A stretch of DNA of 64,000 nucleotides, taken from positions 3,224,001-3,288,000 of the forward strand of contig NZ_CP049868.1 in assembly GCF_011303555.1 (NCBI RefSeq), in the 5' to 3' direction. Under the pieces are notes generated by a model. The model was not told the origin of the DNA, did not search any database, and was given only the letters and a program-made list of their open reading frames with translations. This DNA comes from Pedobacter sp. HDW13. Lineage in GTDB: Bacteria; Bacteroidota; Bacteroidia; Sphingobacteriales; Sphingobacteriaceae. A program made the position numbers and the translations under genes. Of this stretch, positions 4,405-58,748 are shown in pieces (the stretch's first letter is position 1; the number at the start of each line of letters is the position of its first letter).

Positions 4405-5452
4405 ATACATTCAGGTAGCAGCTGATAGTCAGTTGCTTAAAGCAATATATGAGCGTGTAGATGAAGAGTTAATCGTCGATAAAGAAGTTTTTATGTGGCA
4501 CATTATATTTAAGTTCCTTGTGTACTTTTCACTCACCGCACTGCTTTACCTGGCCTTGTATAAAATTACCAGCCCGTTTGGCTTTATGGGCTGTTTTGTA
4601 TGCTATGGATTTGTATCCTTGCTTTTTGCGTTCAACTTTTCGCACGATTTTTCGCACAATACCATTTTTAAAAGTAAACGCCTTAATCACATTTGTTTCG
4701 TAGCCATTTATACCGTAGTGGGTGCACATGCCGAAGCTTGGAAATTACGACATGTTAATTCGCACCATTATGCGCCCAATGTGGTAGATTATGATTCGGA
4801 TTTAAAAATATCTAAACTAATCCGGGTGGTCCCTAATAGCAAATATTACTGGTTTCACCGTTTTCAACATCTGTACGCGCCGCTGGCCTATACCACGTAT
4901 TCCTTGTTTTGGATTTTTGTAAAAGACTTTGTCATCTTATTCAGCAAAGATGATTACGCTGGTAAAAAGACTTTTAAATATTATTGCTCTTTTGTCGTGC
5001 AGAAAATGAGCTACATCACCTTGTTGCTGGTGTTGCCAATGTGTTTTTCCGCTCAATCCTGGCAAATAGTACTATTGGGTTTTCTGCTAATGCATTTAAC
5101 GCAATCACTGTTTTTGCTCTTTACATTTTTTATGACACACCATGTGGAGGCGACGCAATATCCGGTAACCAATAAAGATGGATATATTAATACATCATGG
5201 CTGATGAACCAGATTAAAAGTTCTAACGACATGCATCCCTTTAGCAGAACAGCGAATTTTATTCTCGGCGGCTTTAACAACCATATTGCGCACCATTTAT
5301 TTCCGCATTACCACCATGCTTTTTATCCGGAAATCAGCCAGATTTTATACCGGATACTGCAGGAACACGGTATTAAGCCAAACGCTACCAGCTATTGGGG
5401 TGGAATCCAATCGCACCTGAGGCTGCTGAAGAAAATGGGAACTGTTGCCTAA
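4394..5452 (+). CDS. Fatty acid desaturase (membrane di-iron), copy 2
   Basis: Second member of the same superfamily (352 aa), with boxes HDFSH (84-88), HVNSHH (120-125) and HIAHH (297-301). It is a diverged paralogue of the preceding gene: box spacing, the FHRFQHLYAP-like segment and hydrophobic pattern are shared, but the residues between differ widely. The ATG at 4394 lies inside the end of copy 1 in another frame. The pair could act on different positions of one chain or as a hetero-complex; neither is shown here. The downstream barrel-like gene starts 28 bases after its stop. Confidence 0.88.
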   Translation: MKDKYIQVAADSQLLKAIYERVDEELIVDKEVFMWHIIFKFLVYFSLTALLYLALYKITSPFGFMGCFVCYGFVSLLFAFNFSHDFSHNTIFKSKRLNHICFVAIYTVVGAHAEAWKLRHVNSHHYAPNVVDYDSDLKISKLIRVVPNSKYYWFHRFQHLYAPLAYTTYSLFWIFVKDFVILFSKDDYAGKKTFKYYCSFVVQKMSYITLLLVLPMCFSAQSWQIVLLGFLLMHLTQSLFLLFTFFMTHHVEATQYPVTNKDGYINTSWLMNQIKSSNDMHPFSRTANFILGGFNNHIAHHLFPHYHHAFYPEISQILYRILQEHGIKPNATSYWGGIQSHLRLLKKMGTVA

Positions 5453-5480
5453 AGCTATCCATTCATCTAAATTTAATGTT

Positions 5481-6062
5481 ATGAAATATTTAATGCTTTG
5501 TTGTTTAGTGTTTCTGTTCTCACCTGGTTTCGCCCAACAAGATACCCTGCATCAAAAGAAAAAATTTTATTATGGTTTGGGTATTGGTTTTGGACCAGGA
5601 AGCGAAAGCGGTGGTTATGCCGATGTGTATTTATATCTGCAGCGTAAAACCAATTATCTGGCGCTTAAGTCGTCTGTAATGTCTGAATTTCAAATATACA
5701 GCTATGAACCTGCACCAGGTGTTTCAGATTTGGCCTTGATTTTAGGTAAAAGCTACACCTTTAATCAATACGTCAACGTGCAATTTGGGCTTGGCCCGGC
5801 CTACACGGAGCGCATCTACCGTGGAGCGTTTTTATACAATACCTGCAACTCTTTCTTTTGTTTGTTCGGTCGCGATGTATATGAAATTGCGAAGCAGCGC
5901 GCCCTTGGCTTATCAGCAGAAACCAAGTTTAATTTTATGGTGAGCAGCAGATGGGCACTCACTTTAGGCCTTAATGCAAACCTTAATCAAGCTAAAAGCT
6001 TTTGTGGTGCCTGTGTAGGACTTCGATATGGGAGGCTTCGTGATCGTATTGCAAAAAATTAA
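5481..6062 (+). CDS. Secreted, possibly outer-membrane protein, unknown
   Basis: 193-residue protein with a clear signal peptide (MKYLMLCCLVFLFSPGFAQ). The mature part is rich in alternating aromatic and glycine residues (FYYGLGIGFGPGSESGGY; YTFNQYVNVQFGLGPAY), a pattern seen in small outer-membrane beta-barrels. The frame extends to a TTG at 5445 overlapping the desaturase, but the ATG at 5481 places the signal peptide at the N-terminus and is preferred. Several cysteines (CNSFFC, CGAC) are unusual for a barrel. It converges on the MFS gene, whose stop lies on the opposite strand with the ends overlapping by four bases. Confidence 0.6.
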   Translation: MKYLMLCCLVFLFSPGFAQQDTLHQKKKFYYGLGIGFGPGSESGGYADVYLYLQRKTNYLALKSSVMSEFQIYSYEPAPGVSDLALILGKSYTFNQYVNVQFGLGPAYTERIYRGAFLYNTCNSFFCLFGRDVYEIAKQRALGLSAETKFNFMVSSRWALTLGLNANLNQAKSFCGACVGLRYGRLRDRIAKN

Positions 6063-7307: not shown

Positions 7308-7450
7308 CGCTTTTTATATTAAGGGATTGTAAAAATTAAGCCATTTGTGGGAGAGGTAAAATGGAAGAGGTAAGGGGGATAGCTGATGGTCAATGGTTGA
7401 TGGCGGATTTGCTAATTACCCATCATCCATAAAAATCCATCTTCCATAAA

Positions 7451-7483
7451 AAAAGGTTGCCCCACCCTGTGGAACAACCTTTT
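7451..7483 (-). terminator. Terminator after the sigma-factor operon
   Basis: Arms AAAAGGTTG (7451-7459) and CAACCTTTT (7475-7483) enclose a second short stem CCAC/GTGG. Read on the minus strand the hairpin is followed by a U run from the A tract at 7448-7454. It lies 17 bases after the stop of the 64-residue ORF. Confidence 0.7.
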
Positions 7484-7499
7484 CTGACTAGTGTAAATT

Positions 7500-7694
7500 T
7501 TATAATGACCTGCTATAAGCTAAAATCTTGTTGATGGTTTCATCTTGGGGATTTTTAGCCAGTCTATCTAACTTACTTTTGATCTGATCATAAAATAAGT
7601 CGATTTCTGCGTCAGATTCCATATCCATTTTAGGCTGAAACATGTTCGGGGTTGGTAAATTTACATTGTTTTTTGATGTAGAGGTTTTTGTCAT
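7500..7694 (-). CDS. Small protein downstream of an ECF sigma factor, unknown
   Basis: 64 residues starting MTKTSTSKNNVNLPTPNMF. The first 30 residues look disordered; the rest looks helical and charged (EIDLFYDQIKSKLDRLAKNP, then ETINKILAYSRSL). There is no membrane segment, so it is not a standard anti-sigma factor. It lies 85 bases after the sigma gene and just before a terminator, so it is probably co-transcribed. It may be a small cytoplasmic partner or unrelated; I do not recognise a family. Confidence 0.55.
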   Translation of the reverse strand: MTKTSTSKNNVNLPTPNMFQPKMDMESDAEIDLFYDQIKSKLDRLAKNPQDETINKILAYSRSL

Positions 7695-46833: not shown

Positions 46834-47541
46834 ATGAAACTCTCTTGTATTATCTTAGACGGTGAGCTATTTGCCTCGCAGCAATTGGCAAAATATCTTG
46901 CCAAGATGCCAATTATTGGAAAGGTAAAAATCTATATTAACCCGCACTTAGCCATAGTGGATATTATAAAATCTGAAATTAAAATTGATATTCTATTTAT
47001 TGATCTTGAAACACCCAATACGGCTGGGATAGACCTTATAAAAAAGATCCGTGATAGGGTAAATTTTATCGTACTGGTAAGCTCACATCTAAAGGTTGCC
47101 GTAGAAGGTTATAATCTCAAAGTGGATCACTTCTTACTCAAGCCATTTAACTTTGAGGCATCTCGAAGGATTATTGGCCTGCTCTCAGAAAAAATAATCT
47201 CTGAAACGCCATCAATTAATATTAAACAGGAAAAGGAATACACAAGAATACCTATAGATGATATTATTGCAGTCGAAGCAGCACTGAACTATGTGAAGAT
47301 ACATACTAAATATCGTGTATTTATAATTTATAACAGTATGAGGCGTACTGAGAACGAATTAAGCCCTTATGTCGACTTAATCAGAATCAGTAAGTCTTTT
47401 ATTATTTCAAAGAGCCATATTCGGAAAATCGTGGGAAGACAGATTTTCTTAGAAAATGAAATCAAGGTAACCATAGGAAGTACCTATAAAATGAGTTTAA
47501 CTAGGATACTTAAAGATTTACCCACTTTTCAGAAAGATTAA
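46834..47541 (+). CDS. LytTR-family response regulator, atypical receiver
   Basis: 235 residues: receiver domain (1-120) and LytTR DNA-binding domain (about 135-230; RIPIDDIIAVEAALNYVKIHT, LIRISKSFIISKSHIRKI). The phospho-acceptor aspartate is in LFIDLETPN, and the lysine switch is in LLKPFNF. The acidic pair is altered: IILDGE where the family has a DD or DE pair, so one metal ligand may be lost. No histidine kinase gene is adjacent. A pair of direct repeats upstream fits autoregulation. It converges on a paralogue. Confidence 0.88.
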   Translation: MKLSCIILDGELFASQQLAKYLAKMPIIGKVKIYINPHLAIVDIIKSEIKIDILFIDLETPNTAGIDLIKKIRDRVNFIVLVSSHLKVAVEGYNLKVDHFLLKPFNFEASRRIIGLLSEKIISETPSINIKQEKEYTRIPIDDIIAVEAALNYVKIHTKYRVFIIYNSMRRTENELSPYVDLIRISKSFIISKSHIRKIVGRQIFLENEIKVTIGSTYKMSLTRILKDLPTFQKD

Positions 47542-47620: not shown

Positions 47621-48334
47621 CTAGATGGGTAAAGGGTTATTTTTGCGATCAGTTTCAATAAAATCAATTAAATAGACGAACTGATCTTTAAAGGTACTGC
47701 CTGGATTTAATTGAATTAAGTTTTTTAAAAAGATAGTTTTCCCTTCTATTCTTTCTATGTAATTTTTAGCGATAATAAAAGATCTGTTAATCCGAATGAA
47801 GTTATTGTTGTTTTTCAGCTCACTTTCGATTTCAGATAGTTTGTAGTAAGAGATGTAGATCTTTTTAATGGTATGAATCTTAACATAATTTGACGCTCCC
47901 TCAAAAGCAATAACATCTCCCAGATTTACTTTCTCGATTTTTTTTCCTTCCTTGACATTTAAATATGAATTCTCTCCAGTACAAATTTTATTGACCAAAG
48001 ACTCGAAAGTTTTGAATGTGAAGGGTTTTTCAAGAAAACACTGTGCTTTAATATCATAGCCAGTAATGGCATATTGTAAATGACCACTAACCAATATTAG
48101 GTTTCTTATTTTGTGTCTTATAGATTTTGCCAATTCGATTCCGGATAAGTCAGGCATTTCAACGTCTGTAAACAAAAAATCTAATGGTGAATCTAAGGTG
48201 TTTATAGCTTGTAGAGCAACCGTAGCACAATTATATGAGTTTATGATAATCAGATCTGGCATTAAACTTATATACTCGACAATCTGCTCAATAGAGCACG
48301 GATCATCATCAACAATAATACAGGAGAGTTTCAT
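47621..48334 (-). CDS. LytTR-family response regulator
   Basis: 237 residues, a paralogue of the gene at 46834 with the same start (MKLSCII). The receiver has an intact acidic cluster (IIVDDDP), acceptor aspartate (LFTDVEMPD) and lysine (FLEKPFTF); the LytTR domain (about 140-232) reads VNLGDVIAFEGASNYVKIHT and FIRINRSFIIAKNYIERI. No kinase gene is nearby. It is divergent from the peptide-oxidation and export genes on the right with 228 bases between, a natural place to control them. Confidence 0.9.
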   Translation of the reverse strand: MKLSCIIVDDDPCSIEQIVEYISLMPDLIIINSYNCATVALQAINTLDSPLDFLFTDVEMPDLSGIELAKSIRHKIRNLILVSGHLQYAITGYDIKAQCFLEKPFTFKTFESLVNKICTGENSYLNVKEGKKIEKVNLGDVIAFEGASNYVKIHTIKKIYISYYKLSEIESELKNNNNFIRINRSFIIAKNYIERIEGKTIFLKNLIQLNPGSTFKDQFVYLIDFIETDRKNNPLPI

Positions 48335-48562: not shown

Positions 48563-50158
48563 ATGATTTTTTTTGCTTCTAAAAAGCCTAATTTGGATGC
48601 CATTGCATGCAAGCTGCTCAAAAAACTAAAGGTAAATAGCAAAACTATTGAAGGTAAACTTCAAGAGCATCCAGAATATCCTAGTATACTGTCTCTAAAT
48701 GATTGTCTAACCGAACTTAAGGTCGCAAATCAAACTCTGCGTATAAATAAAGAAAATTATAAGCCTGAAGATTTGATGTTCCCTTTTGTAACTCATTTTA
48801 ATATCGGAGAGGGGAAATTTGTTCTAGTAAACGCAATTGAAAATGGAAAGGTAGATTTATCTGATGATCAGCAGGATAATATAGAGATAAGCGAAGAAGA
48901 TTTTTTAAAATACTGGACGGGCATATCTTTATTCTCTGAAGTGGATGAAATGAGCGGGGAAAAAAACTATACTCAAAATCGATTTAAATATCTCTTGCTA
49001 GATACTATATTACCCCTAGGATTTTTTCTATCACTAACCATGTTTTCTTTGTTGGTGACAGCACATGCGTTCTCTTGGGGTTACTTCTGCCTAGCACTGA
49101 TAAAACTTATTGGATTGGGTATAACTACGTTACTATTGATTCAGGGCATCAATGCCAATAATCCCCTTATCCAGAGTCTATGTAACTTTGCTGGTAAAAA
49201 TAACTGTGTTACTATACTGAAGTCTGATGCTGCAAGGATTACTTCTTGGCTTAGCTGGAGTGAGGTTGGTTTTTTTTATTTTGCAGGCTCATTATTATCT
49301 CTATTACTTTTGTACTCATCTCTAGCCCTGTTAGTCTGGCTCAATCTTTTTTCTTTACCATATACCATCTATTCAGTTACTTATCAATACAAAGTCAAAA
49401 ACTGGTGCATATTATGTTGTTCTGTTCAGGTTTTACTTTGGTTGGAGCTTCTAAGCAATATTATATTTGAATCTGGTCAGCCTAACTTTAATCTCTCATT
49501 ATTTTCCTTGTCCTTTAGAGAGTATCTAATTCTAGGAATATCATTTCTTACGCCAGTATTCCTTTGGGCATTTCTAAAGCCATATTTTTTAAATACAGCT
49601 AAACTTAGGCTGGTACAGCAGCAGCTAAAGAAATTTAAATATAATGTAGATCTGTTTAAACAGGTGTTGACAAATCAGCGACATTATATTATCGGGGATG
49701 ATGTAATGCCGATTATCCTAGGCAATCCAGAGGCTGAGACCGTTATCACAATGGTAAGTAATCCTTTTTGTGAACCATGCGGAAAAGCCCATCAAGTTAT
49801 CGATGAATGGTTGGCAACCAGAGATGACATCCAGTTAAAGGTCGTATTTACCACATCAAATGACAACAATGATCGTGGAACAAGGGTAGCAAGACATGTG
49901 AGTGCTCTAAGTCTACTATTAGATAAAACAATCGCAGAAAAAGCACTAAAGGACTGGTATAAACACGACACTAAGAAATATGAAGATTGGGCAAAAAAAT
50001 ATCCTGTAAGTTTTAATGGCGAAATTTCCTCTATAGAGGAAAAACAAAGAGCATGGTGCGCAATGGCAGAAATAACCTTCACTCCAACCATTTTTATAAA
50101 TGGGTATAAACTACCTGAGCCGTACCGATTAGAGGATGTAAGTTATTTAACCTCTTAA
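48563..50158 (+). CDS. C39-like / VKOR / DsbA-like fusion (disulfide-forming membrane protein)
   Basis: 531 residues in three parts. Residues 1-120 resemble a C39 peptidase fold without the catalytic cysteine (HPEYPSILSLNDCLTEL; VTHFNIGEGKFVLVN). Residues about 140-345 are a membrane VKOR domain: loop cysteines C207 and C215 and redox C282-ILC-C285. The eight-residue spacing of the loop pair equals that of human VKOR (C43/C51). Residues about 355-531 are a thioredoxin/DsbA-like domain with C403-EP-C406 in NPFCEPCGKAH and a cis-proline segment FTPTIF. VKOR passes electrons from the DsbA-like domain to quinone. It lies directly before a six-cysteine secreted peptide, which is its likely substrate. 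Confidence 0.9.
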   Translation: MIFFASKKPNLDAIACKLLKKLKVNSKTIEGKLQEHPEYPSILSLNDCLTELKVANQTLRINKENYKPEDLMFPFVTHFNIGEGKFVLVNAIENGKVDLSDDQQDNIEISEEDFLKYWTGISLFSEVDEMSGEKNYTQNRFKYLLLDTILPLGFFLSLTMFSLLVTAHAFSWGYFCLALIKLIGLGITTLLLIQGINANNPLIQSLCNFAGKNNCVTILKSDAARITSWLSWSEVGFFYFAGSLLSLLLLYSSLALLVWLNLFSLPYTIYSVTYQYKVKNWCILCCSVQVLLWLELLSNIIFESGQPNFNLSLFSLSFREYLILGISFLTPVFLWAFLKPYFLNTAKLRLVQQQLKKFKYNVDLFKQVLTNQRHYIIGDDVMPIILGNPEAETVITMVSNPFCEPCGKAHQVIDEWLATRDDIQLKVVFTTSNDNNDRGTRVARHVSALSLLLDKTIAEKALKDWYKHDTKKYEDWAKKYPVSFNGEISSIEEKQRAWCAMAEITFTPTIFINGYKLPEPYRLEDVSYLTS

Positions 50159-50262
50159 AATTAATGAATAACACTTAACCAATATTTTGTTAACGAAGAA
50201 ATGAAAAGTCTAAATCTGAACATAAACATCTGCTTAGCAGACACATTGTTTTAAAAGAAAAA

Positions 50263-50347
50263 GGGGCAGCTTGATTGCAACCGAAACTGCCCCATAACGA
50301 GTACTGGCGTATACCAGCACCGCTTAAGTTACCCTTGCGTGAAAGGG
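50263..50347 (+). ncRNA. Structured 5' leader of the peptide precursor gene (candidate)
   Basis: Three hairpins precede the precursor ATG. The first pairs GGGGCAG (50263-50269) with CTGCCCC (50287-50293), the second CTGG/CCAG (50304-50317), and the third CCCTT (50332-50336) with AAGGG (50343-50347). The first is followed by no T run. The arrangement could protect or regulate the peptide mRNA, or it could be a cis-acting RNA of a new kind. Confidence 0.4.
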
Positions 50348-50382
50348 CAACAAACTTAAAAAACAAATTTAAACTTAAAACA

Positions 50383-50625
50383 ATGAAAAAGTTAAAATTG
50401 AATCAAACAAACTTTGCTGGCGCAGAAGTATTGAGCAGGGCACAATTGAAAAATGTAATGGGCGGTACAGGAAGCTGTGGGGTTAAAGTTAATGGAACCT
50501 GGTGTACGGTATCTGGTGGTGCTTCCACAGCTGAAGGTATGCTAGGAACAACCCAAACCTGCAATGGCGGAGAAATTTCAGGTACTGTAACAAACTGGTG
50601 CTGTGATAGTTGTTACTGGAATTAA
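50383..50625 (+). CDS. Double-glycine-leader peptide precursor with six-cysteine core
   Basis: 80 residues. The leader MKKLKLNQTNFAGAEVL, then SRAQLKNVMGG, ends in a double glycine at 27-28, the C39 cleavage site, and fits the natural-product precursor leaders of Bacteroidota. The 52-residue core begins TGSCGVKVNG and holds six cysteines (core positions 4, 13, 32, 45, 46 and 49), enough for three disulfides, and ends CCDSCYWN. It is rich in Gly, Thr and Ser, possible O-glycosylation sites. I chose the ATG at 50383; the open frame back to 50275 runs through the hairpins and lacks homology. It sits between two thiol-redox genes. Confidence 0.85.
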   Translation: MKKLKLNQTNFAGAEVLSRAQLKNVMGGTGSCGVKVNGTWCTVSGGASTAEGMLGTTQTCNGGEISGTVTNWCCDSCYWN

Positions 50626-50688: not shown

Positions 50689-52131
50689 ATGAAATACATA
50701 ACGATAATTTTTGCATCATTACTTATTTTTTGTTCTAAAAGAGTTGCAGGTAGATCTTCCGATTTCATGATTCGGCAGGAAGGTATTACCTTAATTTTCC
50801 AGAAAGATCAGAATCGAGGGCGAAACGCTTCGAAGAAAAACATTATTAGCTATTATGACGAAAAGTTGATTAAAAAAGAAGTAATTGTCGAAAATGAACA
50901 AAAGAATGATACGATATTGATTGCAACCGGAAAAAAAATTCTTCCTGTGGATATATCCTTTAATAATGTTACGTTCAATTATTACCTAAAACAGAGTGAT
51001 AAGATCACATTTCAAATCATAAATGGTATCCTCTTTGGGAAATCAGCATTAGCGCATAATAAGAGCTTAGATATAAATTATACAGTCGCCTACAGCCAAT
51101 TCAACAACGAGTTACTTGAAAAAAAAGCGCCCCCCTCAGTTGAGTCAAATTCCCTATCTCCAAAACTGTTGTTTGAGAAAATTGTCAAAAAACATACTGC
51201 CGAAATCAAGTTTATAGACTCCCTGGTAAGCAACGGTCTTATCTCAGAAGAAATCTCAAAGCAATACCTTAAGCAATCTCAATATAAATACATAGGCACA
51301 ATTTTTACCAATAAGACCTTAAGCCCTTATGTTGAACAGTCGGATTTTTCAAAGAGCATTGTTGCTATTCTCAATGACGATACTGCGCTTGGGACAAGCT
51401 ATTTTGATACATTTTTAATCTGGAAATACCTATGGAGTGATGAGCTAGGTATTGAAAGAATAAGAAATGCGAGCAGTATTAGGTTAAACTACGTTCAGGC
51501 ATATGAAAAAGTAAAAAAAAGTATGCCAAACGAGTTCGTGAGAGACTATCTTTTATTCCGTATATTGGAGTTGGTCCAGGACGAAGGAAAGTCAGCCGAT
51601 TTCAACAAACTCCTAGCTCAGCTCAAGCTAGATGTCAAAAACATGACCTATTATAACCATCTTGTAGCAGAGCATGAAGAAAATGAAGATTTTCTAAAGG
51701 GAGTGTCAATTGTTTCGGACCTGTCAAAGAACCGGCAATTAGAATATGAAAAAATCATTAATGAACTCAAGGGAAATGTAGTCTATGTTGATCTTTGGGC
51801 AAGTTGGTGTGTGCCCTGTAGAAAGGCATTTCCAGCCTCTAATAAACTACGTATGGCCTTTAAGGACAAAAAAGTAAAATTCCTCTATATATCCATTGAC
51901 AGTAAATACACAGACTGGAAAAAAGCGAACCAAGAGGAAAATCTTTCTTCTTACAAATACAGCCTGATACTGACCAATGCAAAGACTAGTTTACTAGTGA
52001 AACAGATCTCGTTAAAAATGATACCCCGGTATTTAATATATAACAAAAAAGGAGAACTTATCTACAAAAATGCTCCTGCTCCCGATGATAGAGAACTGTC
52101 CAATATTCTGAAAAAGTATGCTTCTGAATAG
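50689..52131 (+). CDS. Exported thioredoxin-like protein (TlpA/ResA type) with long N-terminal domain
   Basis: 480 residues, signal peptide MKYITIIFASLLIFCSKRVAG. The N-terminal ~330 residues are unrecognised, with beta-rich (30-130) and helical (150-340) parts. The C-terminal domain (about 355-475) is thioredoxin-like: NVVYVDLWASWCVPCRKAF with C374 and C377, and KMIPRYLIYNKKG carrying the cis-proline region. Such domains reduce or isomerise disulfides in the periplasm. It is 63 bases downstream of the six-cysteine peptide, so correction of wrongly paired cysteines in that peptide is the natural inference. Confidence 0.85.
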   Translation: MKYITIIFASLLIFCSKRVAGRSSDFMIRQEGITLIFQKDQNRGRNASKKNIISYYDEKLIKKEVIVENEQKNDTILIATGKKILPVDISFNNVTFNYYLKQSDKITFQIINGILFGKSALAHNKSLDINYTVAYSQFNNELLEKKAPPSVESNSLSPKLLFEKIVKKHTAEIKFIDSLVSNGLISEEISKQYLKQSQYKYIGTIFTNKTLSPYVEQSDFSKSIVAILNDDTALGTSYFDTFLIWKYLWSDELGIERIRNASSIRLNYVQAYEKVKKSMPNEFVRDYLLFRILELVQDEGKSADFNKLLAQLKLDVKNMTYYNHLVAEHEENEDFLKGVSIVSDLSKNRQLEYEKIINELKGNVVYVDLWASWCVPCRKAFPASNKLRMAFKDKKVKFLYISIDSKYTDWKKANQEENLSSYKYSLILTNAKTSLLVKQISLKMIPRYLIYNKKGELIYKNAPAPDDRELSNILKKYASE

Positions 52132-52185: not shown

Positions 52186-53514
52186 ATGGAAAGTCATGAA
52201 AGAACTGTGTTCTGTGCAAACGTAATTAATCTTCCACATAGGGTTGATCGTTATTCACATGTTAAAAGAGAGTTTGAAAGCAGACCAGAATATACTGTTA
52301 ATTTGGTTGCTGCTATCTCACATCAGATTGGAGCATCAGGTCTCTGGCAAACAATCAAACAGATTATCCGGTCCGGACAAGAGAGGTCAGCAGAATATGT
52401 AATTATCTGTGAGGATGACCACCAGTTCACACCAAAATATGACAAAAAACAGCTCGAAAGGTTGATTTCTGAGGCAAAGAAACTGCAAGCTGATATTCTG
52501 CTGGGTGGGATCAGCTGGTGCCGAAGTGCTTTGCAGGTTTCAAAGGATCTATTTTGGGTTGATAAATTTTCAGGCTTACAATTTACAGTGATCTTTCGTA
52601 AGTTTTATGACACCATATTAAATGCGGAGTTTAAAGATGGCGATGCTTCCGATTACAAAATCTCTGAATTGAGTGACAATAAATTGGTTATTTTCCCATT
52701 TATCTCTATCCAAAAAGAATTTGGCTATTCTGATGTAACCATCTCGAACGATACAATAGGTTTTGTAAGTGACCTGTTCAAAAATACTGCTTTAATACTA
52801 GATCAGTTAATAAGGGTTAGAGCATTTTATCAAGCGTTACCAAATATCAATTTTAGCCATACGGATTTGCAATTAAATGAAATTTTACTCCCTACCTATA
52901 TTATTAATCTACCTGAGCGGGAAGAAAGGCTCAGTCATATCAAAACACAATTTTCTGAAAGAAATGAGTTCGAGACGACTATAGTAGAAGCTTGTCGACA
53001 TACCACTGGCGCTATAGGGCTTTGGAAAAGCATTATCAAAGTGATTAAATTGGCGATAGAGAATGAGGATGATGTAATCGTAATTTGTGAAGATGATCAT
53101 GAATTCACCAAAGAATATTCAAAAGAGTTCCTAATCAAAAACATTATCGAAGCAGGTGAACAAGGAGCAGACATCCTCTCAGGGGGAGCAGGCAGCTTTG
53201 GGCAGGCAATGCCCATAACAGCCGAAAGGTATTGGATAAACCCAATTTTCTCGACTCAGTTTATTGTAATCTACTCTAAGTTCTTTAAAAAGATATTAGA
53301 TTATAAGTTTAAAAAGACTGATACTGCCGATGGTGTTTTCTCCTTATTGACTAGCCACAAAATGTTACTTTTCCCATATATTTCTATTCAAAGGGATTTT
53401 GGATATTCAGACATCACTCAGATACACAATGAGATACCAGGGCTTGTTAGCAATATGTTCAATGAAAGCCAAAACTTTCTGAGAAATATTAAGGCTGCTT
53501 ATCTACGACAGTAA
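52186..53514 (+). CDS. Tandem-duplicated GT25-like glycosyltransferase
   Basis: 442 residues made of two homologous halves, about 10-228 and 236-440. Each half begins with the GT25 hallmark (ANVINLPHRVDRYSHVK; TYIINLPEREERLSHIK), then SGLWQTIKQII or IGLWKSIIKVI, and then the metal-binding motif ICEDDH (E76-D77-D78-H79 and E302-D303-D304-H305). Later FPFISIQKEFGYSD and FPYISIQRDFGYSD also repeat. GT25 enzymes transfer galactose or related sugars. No signal peptide, so it would act in the cytoplasm, before export of the peptide. The acceptor is unknown; peptide glycosylation is inferred from context. Confidence 0.8.
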   Translation: MESHERTVFCANVINLPHRVDRYSHVKREFESRPEYTVNLVAAISHQIGASGLWQTIKQIIRSGQERSAEYVIICEDDHQFTPKYDKKQLERLISEAKKLQADILLGGISWCRSALQVSKDLFWVDKFSGLQFTVIFRKFYDTILNAEFKDGDASDYKISELSDNKLVIFPFISIQKEFGYSDVTISNDTIGFVSDLFKNTALILDQLIRVRAFYQALPNINFSHTDLQLNEILLPTYIINLPEREERLSHIKTQFSERNEFETTIVEACRHTTGAIGLWKSIIKVIKLAIENEDDVIVICEDDHEFTKEYSKEFLIKNIIEAGEQGADILSGGAGSFGQAMPITAERYWINPIFSTQFIVIYSKFFKKILDYKFKKTDTADGVFSLLTSHKMLLFPYISIQRDFGYSDITQIHNEIPGLVSNMFNESQNFLRNIKAAYLRQ

Positions 53515-53778: not shown

Positions 53779-55149
53779 ATGAATTTAAGAATACTTATTT
53801 CTGTTGTTCTACCAGTGTATAATGGCCAGGATTATATTAAAAAAGCCATCGACAGTATACTCAACCAGACCTTTGATAATTTTGAACTGATCATCATTGA
53901 TGATTGCTCGACTGACAATACTGTTTCTATTATTGAACAGTTTAAAGATAAAAGAATACGCTTGATCCGAAATCCGACAAACAAAGGCAATTACGCATGT
54001 CGAAATATAGGCAATAGCATATCAAAGGGGAAATATATTGCTGTAATGGATGCAGATGATATATCCTTGCCTAATAGATTACAAGTTCAGTATAATTACT
54101 TGGAACGATATCTCAAACTGGGACTTGTAGGAAGCTTCGGACAGTTTATAAATGAGATTGATCAAAAAGTAGGAATTCTAAGAAAGCCAGTTGAACATAA
54201 CTATATTAAGCTTTTTTTATTCAGAGATAACTGTTTTATCCACTCATCAATGATGTATCGAGCCTCTTTTTTAAAAAGATTTCACATTTGCTACAATGAA
54301 CGATTAAAATTCGCCGCAGATTATGATTTTGCAATTAGATGTTCAAAAAAATTCAAAGTGATGAATATACCCGAGGTACTGGTGGAATATCGTTCCCATG
54401 GCAATCAGATCTCTCAGGAAAAAAGAATAGAACAATTGCAGTTTGCCGATCAAATCCGGTTATGCCAACTTAGACAATTTAAGATAAAATATGTTCCGAT
54501 AGAACTAAATGTTCACTTTAAAATGCTGCAGATCAAATTATGTGAAAAAGATCTAGAGTCGGCCGTAATTTGGTGTAATAGACTGATAGAAGCCAACGAA
54601 CGCTTTAAAATCTATAACCATAAGCATTTCTATGAATTTTTAGATCTGACTTTATCCTTTTCATTTCAGAACAGCGAAGCAAATAGTTGGCCCATAGAAC
54701 AAGAAATGATTGATTTTATTAAGGATAAAATAACCTCAGGTAAAAAAATACTTGAATTTGGTTCTGGTAATGGGACAAATGTTCTTTTGGAAAATTTCGA
54801 AGTCCACAGCATAGAGCATGACATAGATTTCGTTACAAATCGCGGAAAATCCCATTTCTGTATTCATTCGCCTATTAAAGCTGGCTGGTATGATCGTCAG
54901 GCGGTTCTAGAAGTACTTCAACAATCATTTGATTTTATGTTAGTTGACGGCCCTCCCGTAGAATTAAAGGCTGGAATCTTAGATCATTTGGATTTATTTA
55001 CCGGAATAGAATGTCCAGTTATATTCGATGATGTAAATAGACCCTTAGATTTTAACGTTATGGAAACATTTTGCCTGAGGCTGAATTATTCGCCGGAAAT
55101 TATCCAAGGAAGACATAAACAATTCGCCTACTGTACTAAACAATTATAA
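53779..55149 (+). CDS. GT2 glycosyltransferase fused to a methyltransferase-like domain
   Basis: 456 residues. Residues 5-230 are a GT2 domain: SVVLPVYNGQDYIKKAIDSIL, IDDCSTDNT and the metal-binding VMDADD (D91-x-D93-D94). Residues about 300-456 form a Rossmann methyltransferase-like domain with KILEFGSGNGTNVLLENFE (glycine-rich motif at 326-332) and FDFMLVDGPPVEL, of a type seen after glycosyltransferases. No membrane segment. It lies 12 bases before the C39 exporter, so it belongs to the export operon. A sugar transfer followed by methylation or similar modification is possible. The substrate is not readable. Confidence 0.8.
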   Translation: MNLRILISVVLPVYNGQDYIKKAIDSILNQTFDNFELIIIDDCSTDNTVSIIEQFKDKRIRLIRNPTNKGNYACRNIGNSISKGKYIAVMDADDISLPNRLQVQYNYLERYLKLGLVGSFGQFINEIDQKVGILRKPVEHNYIKLFLFRDNCFIHSSMMYRASFLKRFHICYNERLKFAADYDFAIRCSKKFKVMNIPEVLVEYRSHGNQISQEKRIEQLQFADQIRLCQLRQFKIKYVPIELNVHFKMLQIKLCEKDLESAVIWCNRLIEANERFKIYNHKHFYEFLDLTLSFSFQNSEANSWPIEQEMIDFIKDKITSGKKILEFGSGNGTNVLLENFEVHSIEHDIDFVTNRGKSHFCIHSPIKAGWYDRQAVLEVLQQSFDFMLVDGPPVELKAGILDHLDLFTGIECPVIFDDVNRPLDFNVMETFCLRLNYSPEIIQGRHKQFAYCTKQL

Positions 55150-55160
55150 ACAATTTTACA

Positions 55161-57350
55161 TTGAAAAAATTCCCATTTTATAAGCAGCCAGATCAAATGG
55201 ATTGTGGTCCAACCTGTATACGCATGATTGCAAGATATTATGGTCGAAATTATAGCTTACAACGTTTGAGAGAGATTTCAGGTATCAACCGTGCAGGTGT
55301 TTCTCTATTAGGTATTAGCGAGGCAGCAGAGAAAATTGGCTTCAGAACAACCGGGGTCAAACTGACTGTAAGTAAACTACAGGAAATGGAAATGCCATGT
55401 ATACTTCATTGGCGACAGAATCATTTTGTAGTACTCTATAAGGTGGAAAAGAATAGCATCTTTTATATAGCGGATCCAGCCCGAGGTCTCATTAAGTACA
55501 ATAAGGACGAGTTTGTAAAATTTTGGGAAAATACTCGAAATGAAAATGGTGGTCTTGGAATTGCTTTAGCCATTGAACCCAGTCCTGAATTTTATCAGCA
55601 AATAGGAGATCCTAATAAAAGGCTAGATATAACCTATATACTAGGTTATTTAGTAAAATACAAAAGCCTAATCATACAGCTCTTCATGGGACTTGGTGTA
55701 GGTAGTTTACTTCAATTGATCCTGCCCTTCTTAACTCAAGCTGTTGTAGATATTGGTATTAATACACGAAATTTAAATTTCATTTATATTGTCTTAATTG
55801 CCCAAACTATGCTTTTTTTAGGACGGATGAGTGTCGATTTTATTCGTGCCTGGATATTGTTGCATATCAGTACACGCATCAATATCTCCATTTTGACCGA
55901 TTTCCTAATCAAATTGATGAAATTGCCTATGAGTTTTTTTGAGACCAAGATGACTGGCGATATCATGCAACGGATGAGCGATCAAGGACGTATACAGACT
56001 TTTTTGACAGGATCATCTCTCAGTACGGTCTTTTCTCTTTTTAATCTTATTGCATTTGCTTTTGTATTAGCCTATTACAATTTAGATGTATTTCTAATTT
56101 TTGTTGTTAGCAGTATATTGTACAGCATAGTTGTAATTATTTTTCTCAAAAAACGTAGGGAACTTGACTTTAAACGTTTCGACATTGCCTCTCAAAATCA
56201 GAGTACAGTTGTTCAGTTGATTTCAGGCATGCAGGAAATAAAACTCAATAACTGTGAACAGCAAAAGCGTTGGGAATGGGAACGCGTGCAAGCCAGTTTA
56301 TTCAAATTTAGTATAAAGAGCCTTGCGCTAGGCCAGATTCAGCAATTTTTTGCATTTTTCATAAATGAGGGGAAGAATATTTTAATTACCTTTTTAGTGG
56401 CTAAATCTGTTGTAGACGGACAATTGACTCTTGGCGGTATGATGGCTGTGCAATATATAGTTGGCCAGTTGAATAGCCCGATTGAGCAATTTTTAGGTTT
56501 TTTACAGGGTTTTCAGGATGCCAAAATTAGCTTGGAGCGATTAAACGAGGTTCATGAACTAGAAAATGAGGAGCCATTAGGAAAACAGTTTCTATTCGAT
56601 TTACCTAAACATACTACTATAAAACTCAATCAATTGAGTTTTACTTATCCCGGTGCAGGCAATGATCCTGTACTGTCTAATATCAATCTGGAAATCCCAG
56701 TTGGTAAAACCACAGCTATAGTTGGTATGAGCGGGAGCGGAAAGACAACAATCCTGAAACTCTTACTGCGTTTTTATGAACCACAAAAAGGTGAAATCAA
56801 AATAGGGAGTTCAAATATAAATCAGGTCAGTTTTAAATTTTGGAGGGGAAAATGTGGCATAGTCATGCAAGATGGTTATATCTTTTCAGACACAATAGCT
56901 AGAAATATAGCAGTTGCAGATGAATACCCAGACATTGAAAAATTGCAGCACGCCATCAAAGTAGCCAATATTGCTGACTTCGTAGATGAACTCCCGCTTG
57001 GCATTCATACCAAAATCGGCGCGGCAGGAAATGGAATAAGTCAAGGACAGAAACAGCGAATCCTTATTGCAAGGGCCGTGTATAAAAATCCTGAGTATAT
57101 TTTCTTTGATGAGGCGACAAATGCATTGGACGCAAACAATGAAAAAATCATCATGGAAAATCTGGAAAGTTTTTTTGAAGGCCGTACTGTTGTTGTCGTT
57201 GCACACCGATTAAGTACTGTGAAAAACGCGGATAATATTGTTGTGCTAGACAAGGGGCTTATCATTGAACAAGGAACTCATTTGGAACTAACCCAGAGAA
57301 AAGGAGATTACTATCAGCTTGTAAAAAATCAATTAGAGCTAGGAAATTAA
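55161..57350 (+). CDS. C39 peptidase-containing ABC exporter
   Basis: 729 residues that cleave double-glycine leaders and export the mature peptide. The N-terminal C39 domain has C15 (QMDCGPTC), H88 (RQNHFVV) and D105 (IADPARG) intact. About 160-440 is the six-helix membrane domain, and 480-729 the ATPase: Walker A GMSGSGKTT from 522, signature ISQGQKQR, Walker B IFFDEATNALD. The start is TTG at 55161 (MKKFPFYKQPDQ), supported by alignment with the family start. It is the key evidence that the 50383 peptide is processed and secreted. Confidence 0.95.
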   Translation: MKKFPFYKQPDQMDCGPTCIRMIARYYGRNYSLQRLREISGINRAGVSLLGISEAAEKIGFRTTGVKLTVSKLQEMEMPCILHWRQNHFVVLYKVEKNSIFYIADPARGLIKYNKDEFVKFWENTRNENGGLGIALAIEPSPEFYQQIGDPNKRLDITYILGYLVKYKSLIIQLFMGLGVGSLLQLILPFLTQAVVDIGINTRNLNFIYIVLIAQTMLFLGRMSVDFIRAWILLHISTRINISILTDFLIKLMKLPMSFFETKMTGDIMQRMSDQGRIQTFLTGSSLSTVFSLFNLIAFAFVLAYYNLDVFLIFVVSSILYSIVVIIFLKKRRELDFKRFDIASQNQSTVVQLISGMQEIKLNNCEQQKRWEWERVQASLFKFSIKSLALGQIQQFFAFFINEGKNILITFLVAKSVVDGQLTLGGMMAVQYIVGQLNSPIEQFLGFLQGFQDAKISLERLNEVHELENEEPLGKQFLFDLPKHTTIKLNQLSFTYPGAGNDPVLSNINLEIPVGKTTAIVGMSGSGKTTILKLLLRFYEPQKGEIKIGSSNINQVSFKFWRGKCGIVMQDGYIFSDTIARNIAVADEYPDIEKLQHAIKVANIADFVDELPLGIHTKIGAAGNGISQGQKQRILIARAVYKNPEYIFFDEATNALDANNEKIIMENLESFFEGRTVVVVAHRLSTVKNADNIVVLDKGLIIEQGTHLELTQRKGDYYQLVKNQLELGN

Positions 57351-57410: not shown

Positions 57411-58748
57411 ATGAACAATAAATTAGGCACCATAGATAGCAAAATACATCAGGCAGATAGTTTAAAACTGCCTGAACAAAGCTATGTAGATATCAATAGC
57501 GAAGAGGTTCAGGAAATAATCGCGTCAGTACCATCTTGGATATTGAGAAGTGGAAATACTGTAATCTTTATTGTTCTGCTCGGAATCCTATTAATGTCAT
57601 CATTAATTGAATATCCTGATGTGGTAAAAACAGGATTAAAGATAAACTCTCTCAATTCACCAAAGCCTATATTGGCCAAGCAAAATGCAAAGCTTACCAA
57701 ACTGCTAGCCAAAGATGGCGAAACCGTAGAAGAAAACCAGATATTGGCATATTTTGAAAGTACTGCAAACCCCGTAGACATCCTTGAGGTCAATGAAAAG
57801 CTACTCATCATTAAACATAACATTTTAAATAATATTGATAAAGAATTGATCTTACCGGCAGCGATGAACTTGGGAGAGCTACAGACAAGTTATCAGAATT
57901 TTTATCAGCAATATCTAGCCTTTCTTTCTACAAAAAAAAATGGTTATTATATAAATAAGGCCACCTTTCTTGAGCGTGATCTCCAAGATATCAGTAGTTT
58001 AAAAACACAGATATTCAAACAGCAAAAAATTCAAGAACAGGAGTATGCAAATAATGAAAAAGAATATAAAGCTTATAAACAGCTTTATGAAAAAAAGGTA
58101 ATCTCTCGGAATGAATTTTCGGAACATGAAAATAAATATCTTGCCGCAAAATATCCTTTACAACAGACAGAGACGGCTATCCTAAATAATTCCACCGCAA
58201 ATAATGCAAAACGAAAAGAATTGTTAGATATAAGGCACACCATTGCTGAGGAGCAAGCAAAGTTTATCCAATCGTTAAATCAATGTATAGGTGATAGTGA
58301 TGCTTGGATTCAACTATATGTTCTGAGAGCGCCAGTAAAGGGACGATTGAGCTATGCGGGAATTATCCAGCAGAATCAGAACATATTGGCTGGTCAAGAG
58401 GTTTTTATCGTCAATCCTGGTAATACAGATTTTTTTGGAGAAATGCAAATTCCACAATATAATATGGGCAAAATCCATAGGGGAGAAAGAACTTTGATCA
58501 AACTAAAAAGTTACCCATTTGAACAATTTGGAACAATCAGAGGGAGACTTACCTATATTTCTGATGTAGCTTATCAAGATAGTGTCTTCATCGCTAAGGT
58601 AAGTTTTGAAAAATTTGAAAATAAAGATAAATACAATAAGATAGTTTTAAAGAATGGAATGTTAGCAGATGCAGAAATTATCACCGAGGAAAGTTCTTTG
58701 CTACTACGTTTTTTTAGAAACATAAAAAAAATGATGACTACTCAATAG
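57411..58748 (+). CDS. HlyD-family secretion adaptor
   Basis: 445 residues, one N-terminal membrane segment (NTVIFIVLLGILLMSSLIEY at about 47-68), then biotinyl-lipoyl-like and long coiled-coil sections (about 100-290), and a beta-barrel (LYVLRAPVKGRLSYAG; GKIHRGERTLIKLKSYPFEQFG). This is the periplasmic adaptor that joins a C39 ABC exporter to an outer-membrane channel. No TolC-like gene is in the window, so the channel is supplied elsewhere. It starts 60 bases after the exporter. Confidence 0.92.
   Translation: MNNKLGTIDSKIHQADSLKLPEQSYVDINSEEVQEIIASVPSWILRSGNTVIFIVLLGILLMSSLIEYPDVVKTGLKINSLNSPKPILAKQNAKLTKLLAKDGETVEENQILAYFESTANPVDILEVNEKLLIIKHNILNNIDKELILPAAMNLGELQTSYQNFYQQYLAFLSTKKNGYYINKATFLERDLQDISSLKTQIFKQQKIQEQEYANNEKEYKAYKQLYEKKVISRNEFSEHENKYLAAKYPLQQTETAILNNSTANNAKRKELLDIRHTIAEEQAKFIQSLNQCIGDSDAWIQLYVLRAPVKGRLSYAGIIQQNQNILAGQEVFIVNPGNTDFFGEMQIPQYNMGKIHRGERTLIKLKSYPFEQFGTIRGRLTYISDVAYQDSVFIAKVSFEKFENKDKYNKIVLKNGMLADAEIITEESSLLLRFFRNIKKMMTTQ

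Follow-up and report, generated by a model that had tools for sequence, protein, structure and literature searches.

The precursor and its operon

We analysed a stretch of 64,000 nucleotides from Pedobacter sp. HDW13 (contig NZ_CP049868.1, positions 3,224,001 to 3,288,000), called here the window, with a focus on a small gene for a cysteine-rich peptide, the operon around it and a structured RNA in front of it. The gene lies on the forward strand at 50383-50625. Its translation is an 80-residue double-glycine precursor, with the leader MKKLKLNQTNFAGAEVLSRAQLKNVMGG (28 residues, 50383-50466) followed by the core TGSCGVKVNGTWCTVSGGASTAEGMLGTTQTCNGGEISGTVTNWCCDSCYWN (52 residues, 50467-50625 including the stop codon). 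Counted after the double glycine, the cysteines are at positions 4, 13, 32, 45, 46 and 49; the C-terminal end carries a CCxxC and finishes with CYWN. A first-pass annotation, made by a model from the sequence alone, had described a six-cysteine, 52-residue core with a Cys-Tyr-Trp tail, and the translation bears this out. The core begins with T-G-S, an instance of the motif “x-G-S”, which we scored at core positions 1-3, straight after the cleavage site.

The leader resembles those of TIGR04149 precursors, a double-glycine leader model, with 20.9 bits, below the curated cut-off of 25, and is not a member by score. No radical SAM gene was identified among the operon proteins scanned. The core matches nothing in Pfam and, in NCBIfam, nothing above cut-off, in keeping with the earlier statement that it fits no familiar disulfide-bacteriocin family. 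By inspection, the YGNGV motif of class IIa bacteriocins is absent from it. A search of a plasmid collection with the peptide gave no match, and a fold search with a model of the core (predicted local distance difference test, pLDDT, 85.6) gave nothing usable, with a best E of 4.9. The precursor is single-copy in its own genome. It is more than a chance open reading frame (ORF), given the sub-cut-off leader match, core relatives in two other genomes and a covarying RNA upstream.

Two LytTR-type response regulators (PF04397, PF00072) precede the operon. The one at 46834-47541, on the forward strand, is a probable regulator of the cluster, and the second, at 47621-48334, is divergent, on the reverse strand. 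The other window genes described here are all on the forward strand. At 48563-50158 we found a disulfide oxidase fusion of 531 residues, with degenerate C39-like, VKOR-like membrane and DsbA-like thioredoxin domains (Pfam C39, Thioredoxin_4). Among 13 homologues, C39 is found in 12, VKOR (PF07884) in 11 and Thioredoxin_4 in 10. Three redox cysteine pairs (Cys207, 215, 282, 285, 403 and 406) are invariant in 13 of 13. The C39-like domain has no active-site cysteine, and carries a lysine where PCAT1 has the catalytic histidine.

Next to the precursor, at 50689-52131, is a TlpA/ResA-like thioredoxin with a long N-terminal region and a visible WCVPC (Thioredoxin_8, Redoxin, AhpC-TSA). The neighbours had been annotated at first as an oxidase and an isomerase; the oxidase stands, as the fusion, and the “isomerase” is better described as this thioredoxin. 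A tandem GT25 glycosyltransferase follows at 52186-53514, then a GT2 glycosyltransferase (PF00535, 8.7e-37) with a methyltransferase-like C-terminal part at 53779-55149. The operon continues with a peptidase-containing ABC transporter (PCAT) at 55161-57350, composed of a C39 peptidase and an ABC transporter, with a TTG start and an intact active-site DCGPTC (PF03412, PF00664, PF00005). A HlyD-type membrane fusion protein is located at 57411-58748 (PF13437, TIGR01843).

Shared machinery and hypervariable cores

The VKOR-type fusion is present in 148 of 399 genomes of the family and in 33 of 296 genomes of the phylum. We analysed 142 loci, made of 140 regions around the oxidase fusion or beside earlier peptide matches, the window, and L031, a locus with a related core. 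The leader profile recognised 176 precursors in these loci, with 175 different cores. Cysteine counts are even in 165 of the 176 (six in 107, eight in 30, four in 23) and odd in 11. When similar cores are paired, 87 of 89 pairs differ by an even number of cysteines, which is largely a consequence of the even totals. The window core looks like one among many interchangeable cores served by a common machinery.

More distant oxidase-fusion loci (L256-L267) have other leaders, of the MLKNILNLEGAQKLTKNEQKSINGG type, together with cysteine-rich cores; therefore the platform is broader than one family.

A secreted signal (pheromone) read by the flanking LytTR regulators, in place of a toxin, is an unlikely role for the peptide. 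Two such regulators flank the operon and they occur in 32 of the 142 loci. However, no sensor kinase could be recognised among the ORFs listed between the two, and the extreme variety of the cores suits conflict better than a signal matched to a receptor.

Core relatives and predicted disulfide bonds

The core family has three members: the window, L031 and G085. In L031, from a Pedobacter metagenome-assembled genome, the precursor is 71 residues long and its core is 67% identical to the window core, or 64% by another comparison. Its coordinates are those of one of the genomes used in the RNA scan, Pedobacter sp. UBA1951, of the window's genus. The L031 cluster contains the oxidase, thioredoxin, exporter and HlyD genes and no glycosyltransferase; its leader is short and its core lacks x-G-S. 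G085 is 58% identical over most of the precursor, with an in-frame TAA at the junction of leader and core. When 27,913 small ORFs, drawn from 159 loci, were searched with a profile of the three cores, it matched only these three known members. Three further loci with CCxxC ends (L063, L098 and L099) were considered as core relatives and rejected, as this profile gave them no support (L098 at E 1.1, the others not among the listed matches).

Both relatives keep C4, C45, C46 and C49 and have neither C13 nor C32, which are Tyr and Phe in L031. Random loss of single cysteines among homologues, which the first-pass annotation had named as evidence against its reading, was looked for and not seen; C13 and C32 go together. 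Because they are missing together in both relatives, a C13-C32 disulfide is predicted. Across the loci, clear paired losses were found in the window core family and in five paralogues at L246.

Disulfides in the window core are strongly favoured, because 165 of the 176 cores have even cysteine counts and because C13 and C32 are lost as a pair, not singly. This agrees in part with the three defined disulfides proposed at first: bond formation is favoured, and C13-C32 is the only pair predicted from the relatives. A secreted metal-binding peptide, in which the C-terminal CCxxC and the other cysteines would hold copper or zinc with no disulfides, is very improbable. The CCxxC itself would suit such a role, but the operon has a dedicated disulfide oxidase fusion and a thioredoxin, cysteine counts are even across unrelated cores, and C13 and C32 disappear jointly.

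The locus L246 (12152-13966) has five tandem precursors, all with x-G-S, the fifth with two cysteines lost together.

A glycosyltransferase that tracks the start of the core

Of the 142 loci, 17 have GT25 genes, frequently as two adjacent single-domain ORFs. Within the genus they occur in 25 of 145 genomes, against 2 of 395 drawn across the class. We found that the x-G-S motif goes with their presence. Among loci with oxidase, exporter and a recognised precursor, 12 of the 14 that have GT25 show x-G-S, against 2 of the 79 that do not (Fisher p 1.9e-11). Dropping the exporter requirement gives 12/16 versus 5/101 (p 1.2e-9), and within long leaders the counts are 12/15 versus 4/45 (p 4.6e-7). 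The motif classes were picked after viewing the first 41 loci, and the main count includes loci that suggested the rule. Later GT25-anchored loci, some of them in already sampled genomes, served to test it.

In a tree built on the oxidase fusion, which covers 119 loci (two of them later ones), GT25 changes 12 times. Of 10 independent tree pairs, 7.1 on average show x-G-S going with GT25 and 0.1 the opposite, with a median p of 0.016 across pairings. A long leader alone is not associated with x-G-S in the same test (p 0.375). The relative L031, which is without GT25, also has no x-G-S.

Seventeen further regions were fetched by GT25. The four with precursors found by the leader profile carry 10 of them, with strict x-G-S in eight and GS at positions 3-4 or 4-5 in two. 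Among the other thirteen regions, L236 contains an ORF that has no cysteine but seven T/S-G-S repeats. Very long (GS)n tracts, resembling serglycin acceptors, are found in two precursors at L242 (12231-12973) and in two at another GT25 locus, L196 (6496-7738). In L240 and L241, GT25 lies beside PCAT/HlyD and lanthipeptide-like ENF..TSG..C precursors, and the full oxidase fusion is absent. L233, L239 and L243 contain other double-glycine-like small ORFs, and no precursor-like small ORF was recognised in L234, L235, L237, L244, L245 or L247.

At L199, GT25 remnants (5298-5638 and 7432-7569) are near a precursor with GG followed by DFGSGSGSGS, apparently a decaying pair.

A second association concerns precursors cut between AG and SG. 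These go with a DUF6625 (PF20330) gene, present in 9 of 10 such loci against 1 of 107 others. The nine (L103, L120, L124, L134, L141, L143, L147, L149 and L189) mostly also carry GT4 and GT61, and may be one clade; the tenth, L100, is a false AG-SG call that carries GT25. This pattern makes DUF6625 a probable glycosyltransferase that acts on Ser-Gly starts.

The window GT25 reaches the gathering score of PF01755 (28.5 versus 24 bits), a family also found in 16 of 16 homologues, and has two GT-A domains with EDD in both halves. A sequence search of the PDB gave no match. We modelled the protein with 15 homologues (pLDDT 91.6, predicted template modelling score 0.87). In a Foldseek search of the model against the PDB, the best matches were human COLGALT1 entries (E 5e-15). 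COLGALT1, also named GLT25D1, is also a tandem GT-A protein, and together with mimivirus R655 is among the best structural matches (PDB 9evj, 9crz for the two). Superposition on COLGALT1 gives Z 18.2 over 351 residues with a root-mean-square deviation (rmsd) of 20.8 Å; therefore the domains match and their arrangement differs. For R655 the values are Z 15.8 over 168 residues and rmsd 2.6 Å. Sequence identity to both is just 12-17%. Many other GT-A enzymes also exceed Z 10, therefore the fold alone gives no substrate.

O-glycosylation of Ser3 of the core by GT25 is the most likely reading, because an enzyme resembling protein-directed galactosyltransferases adjoins a peptide whose Gly-Ser start tracks that enzyme. 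Its main competitor, which we consider unlikely, is an unmodified, bacteroidetocin-like disulfide peptide, with GT25 and GT2 as mere neighbours that serve lipopolysaccharide or another product. It gains from the lack of GT25 in most VKOR loci in which a precursor was recognised (101 of 117), from the close relative L031 in a cluster without it, and from the name of PF01755, a family called after lipopolysaccharide enzymes. Bacteroidetocin regions need just four genes (PMC6671954). On the other hand, GT25 and x-G-S change jointly on the oxidase tree, GT25 belongs to the operon, where it lies after the thioredoxin and before PCAT, its fold resembles a protein-directed galactosyltransferase, and long (GS)n precursors also occur at GT25 loci.

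For the GT2 protein, the PDB sequence matches (n=23) are named as polysaccharide, lipid-linked or unspecified glycosyltransferases. Its C-terminus has only PF08484 at 0.023, below the Pfam cut-off, and contains LEFGSG and DGPP, which we take to be S-adenosylmethionine (SAM)-methyltransferase-like motifs. With this sub-cut-off end, GT2 is a candidate to add and methylate a second sugar.

A structured RNA before the precursor gene

The 140 nucleotides upstream of precursor starts fold better than shuffled sequences (mean z -0.9, n=176), and one RNA architecture is common to many loci of the window's genus. In the window it lies in the 5' leader of the precursor at 50258-50357, on the forward strand, with three hairpins and a 3-bp pseudoknot (model E 1e-26, fold z -4.7).

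The RNA model was built from 15 loci, and those training sequences match by construction. It matches 52 times in 100 loci and a further 6 times in 58 more. Of these 58 matches, 49 share the strand of a recognised precursor and end 16-52 nucleotides (median 27) upstream of its start. Of the others, three lie before double-glycine-leader ORFs that the precursor table missed, and one before a GT25 gene. The element is carried by 45 of 144 genomes of the genus, with one strong copy in the window genome. A second model, applied to 93 further loci, gave 22 weaker matches up to E 0.5, with a chance level of about 0.7% per match; 18 of the 22 immediately precede a recognised precursor, and another 2 precede double-glycine-leader ORFs. 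Rfam has no match to it at gathering score, and up to E 5 only chance-level ones.

The structure is shown by covariation. In 44 aligned copies, changes on both sides were found in 24 of 26 proposed pairs, and the covariation score, 0.470, exceeds the values obtained with shuffles (0.205) or by sliding (0.159 at most). The pseudoknot joins the CGC that follows hairpin 2 to a GCG within the hairpin 3 loop; it is paired in 100% of cells and is mostly invariant. Hairpin 3 pairs in just 69% of cells, partly due to gap placement. The fixed spacing to the start codon suggests that the RNA controls translation or stability.

That the element is a DNA recombination site for core exchange, and not a functional RNA, appears improbable. 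Such a role would suit an element that is shared while the cores are hypervariable, and that has two or more copies in the clusters L072, L084 and L238. The compensatory changes in 24 of 26 pairs, the one-strand orientation and the fixed distance to the start codon suit an RNA instead.

At L070 (3380-3481), a copy of the RNA is directly 5' of a GT25 gene and not of a precursor. Just 5' of many RNA elements there are palindromes such as TTTTGTACAAAA or TTTTTGCAAAAA, at 50208-50270 in the window, which are possibly a promoter or start-site box or an operator.

Proposed product and comparison with known systems

The reading that we favour, and regard as fairly likely, is that the operon makes a secreted, disulfide-bonded, probably O-glycosylated peptide of antibacterial type, as a product of a modular platform. 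The precursor mRNA would open with the structured RNA, for translational or stability control. In the cytoplasm, before export, the tandem GT25 would add a sugar to Ser3 (GG-x-GS), as its co-occurrence with the motif and its COLGALT1-like model suggest, and GT2 perhaps extends it. Judging by its intact C39 motif and by its family, PCAT would then cleave after GG and export the core with HlyD. In the periplasm, the VKOR-DsbA-like fusion and the TlpA-like thioredoxin may make and proof-read the disulfides. The putative map has C13-C32, with C4 likeliest bound to C45 or C46 and the other of these to C49. By analogy with bacteroidetocins of the same gene order, the product would attack competing bacteria.

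Several observations weigh against this reading. In a core family of three members, one of them a broken gene, the paired cysteine change may represent only one or two events. The p of the tree-pair test ranges from 0.008 to 0.22 depending on the pairing. The leader profile found precursors in only 4 of the 17 GT25-anchored loci. Four GT25 loci lack strict x-G-S (L070, L104, L174 and L183), and five loci have x-G-S with no detected GT25: L098, L193, L102 (on a 3.4-kb contig), L155 (with a GT61-like gene) and L141 (with GT4, GT61 and DUF6625). The window oxidase itself falls short of the Pfam VKOR model, which 11 of the 13 aligned homologues reach. Finally, the cluster has neither a known immunity gene nor a known activity.

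The wider proposal, for which we see the chances as evenly balanced, concerns Pedobacter and relatives. In these bacteria, a constant chassis of RNA, leader, oxidase and exporter would serve hypervariable even-cysteine cores, with GT25 or GT4/GT61/DUF6625 adding sugar to an N-terminal Gly-Ser tag. The first residues after the cut would act as a glycosylation code, in its extreme form in the (GS)n precursors. The first-pass annotation is partly supported and was incomplete, as it missed the exchangeable cores behind one machinery, the GT25 tied to the Gly-Ser start and the structured RNA leader.

If true, two or three residues behind the cleavage site, together with the adjoining glycosyltransferase, would tell which secreted peptides bear sugars. 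The system would suggest a bacterial counterpart of collagen galactosylation that acts on Gly-Ser, and DUF6625 would gain a likely role. A covarying RNA family outside Rfam marks precursor genes and would be usable to find many unannotated peptides. One disulfide is predicted in a new core family.

We compared the cluster with two known systems. Bacteroidetocin regions encode, in order, a five-transmembrane protein, the peptide, a thiol oxidoreductase and a GG-cleaving transporter, and the peptides are proposed class IIf bacteriocins that kill Bacteroidales and target BamA (PMC6671954, PMC8546649). The leader has 15-16 residues ending in GG (PMC6671954), and the mature peptide has 42-53 residues with at least two cysteines (PMC8546649). 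The window shares the order of transmembrane protein, peptide, thiol oxidoreductase and PCAT, with the VKOR fusion as putative counterpart of the five-transmembrane protein and with two glycosyltransferase genes added before PCAT. It also shares a cysteine-rich core within that length range (52 residues), a Bacteroidota host and the lack of a visible immunity gene. Unlike the bacteroidetocins, it has a leader of 28 residues, six cysteines in place of four, GT25 and GT2 genes and a structured RNA leader. This comparison covers gene order and peptide features.

Glycocin clusters bring together a PCAT, a glycosyltransferase and a pair of thioredoxin-like enzymes, and one glycocin is cleaved at GK and contains three disulfides (PMC12457901). 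Like sublancin, glycocin F and ThgA/OrgA, with their GG- or GK-type leaders, the window cluster has a double-glycine leader, PCAT, two thiol-disulfide enzymes and a glycosyltransferase; ThgA has three disulfides and a sugar (PMC12457901), as predicted for the window peptide. A plain glycocin reading was rejected, since the cluster of the nearest core relative has no glycosyltransferase and the recurrent one is GT25. In gene order the cluster is bacteroidetocin-like and in gene content glycocin-like, and we file it in neither class. In the open-licence PMC literature searched, we saw neither GT25 described for such clusters, nor VKOR fusions accompanying these peptides, nor the leader RNA.

In contrast to glycocins, the motif-linked glycosyltransferase is a tandem GT25, the oxidase is a VKOR fusion, the host is Gram-negative and the predicted acceptor is the N-terminal x-G-S. 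SunS is a GT2-family glycosyltransferase. The MGKGS at L183 may resemble the GK cleavage of the glycocin mentioned above.
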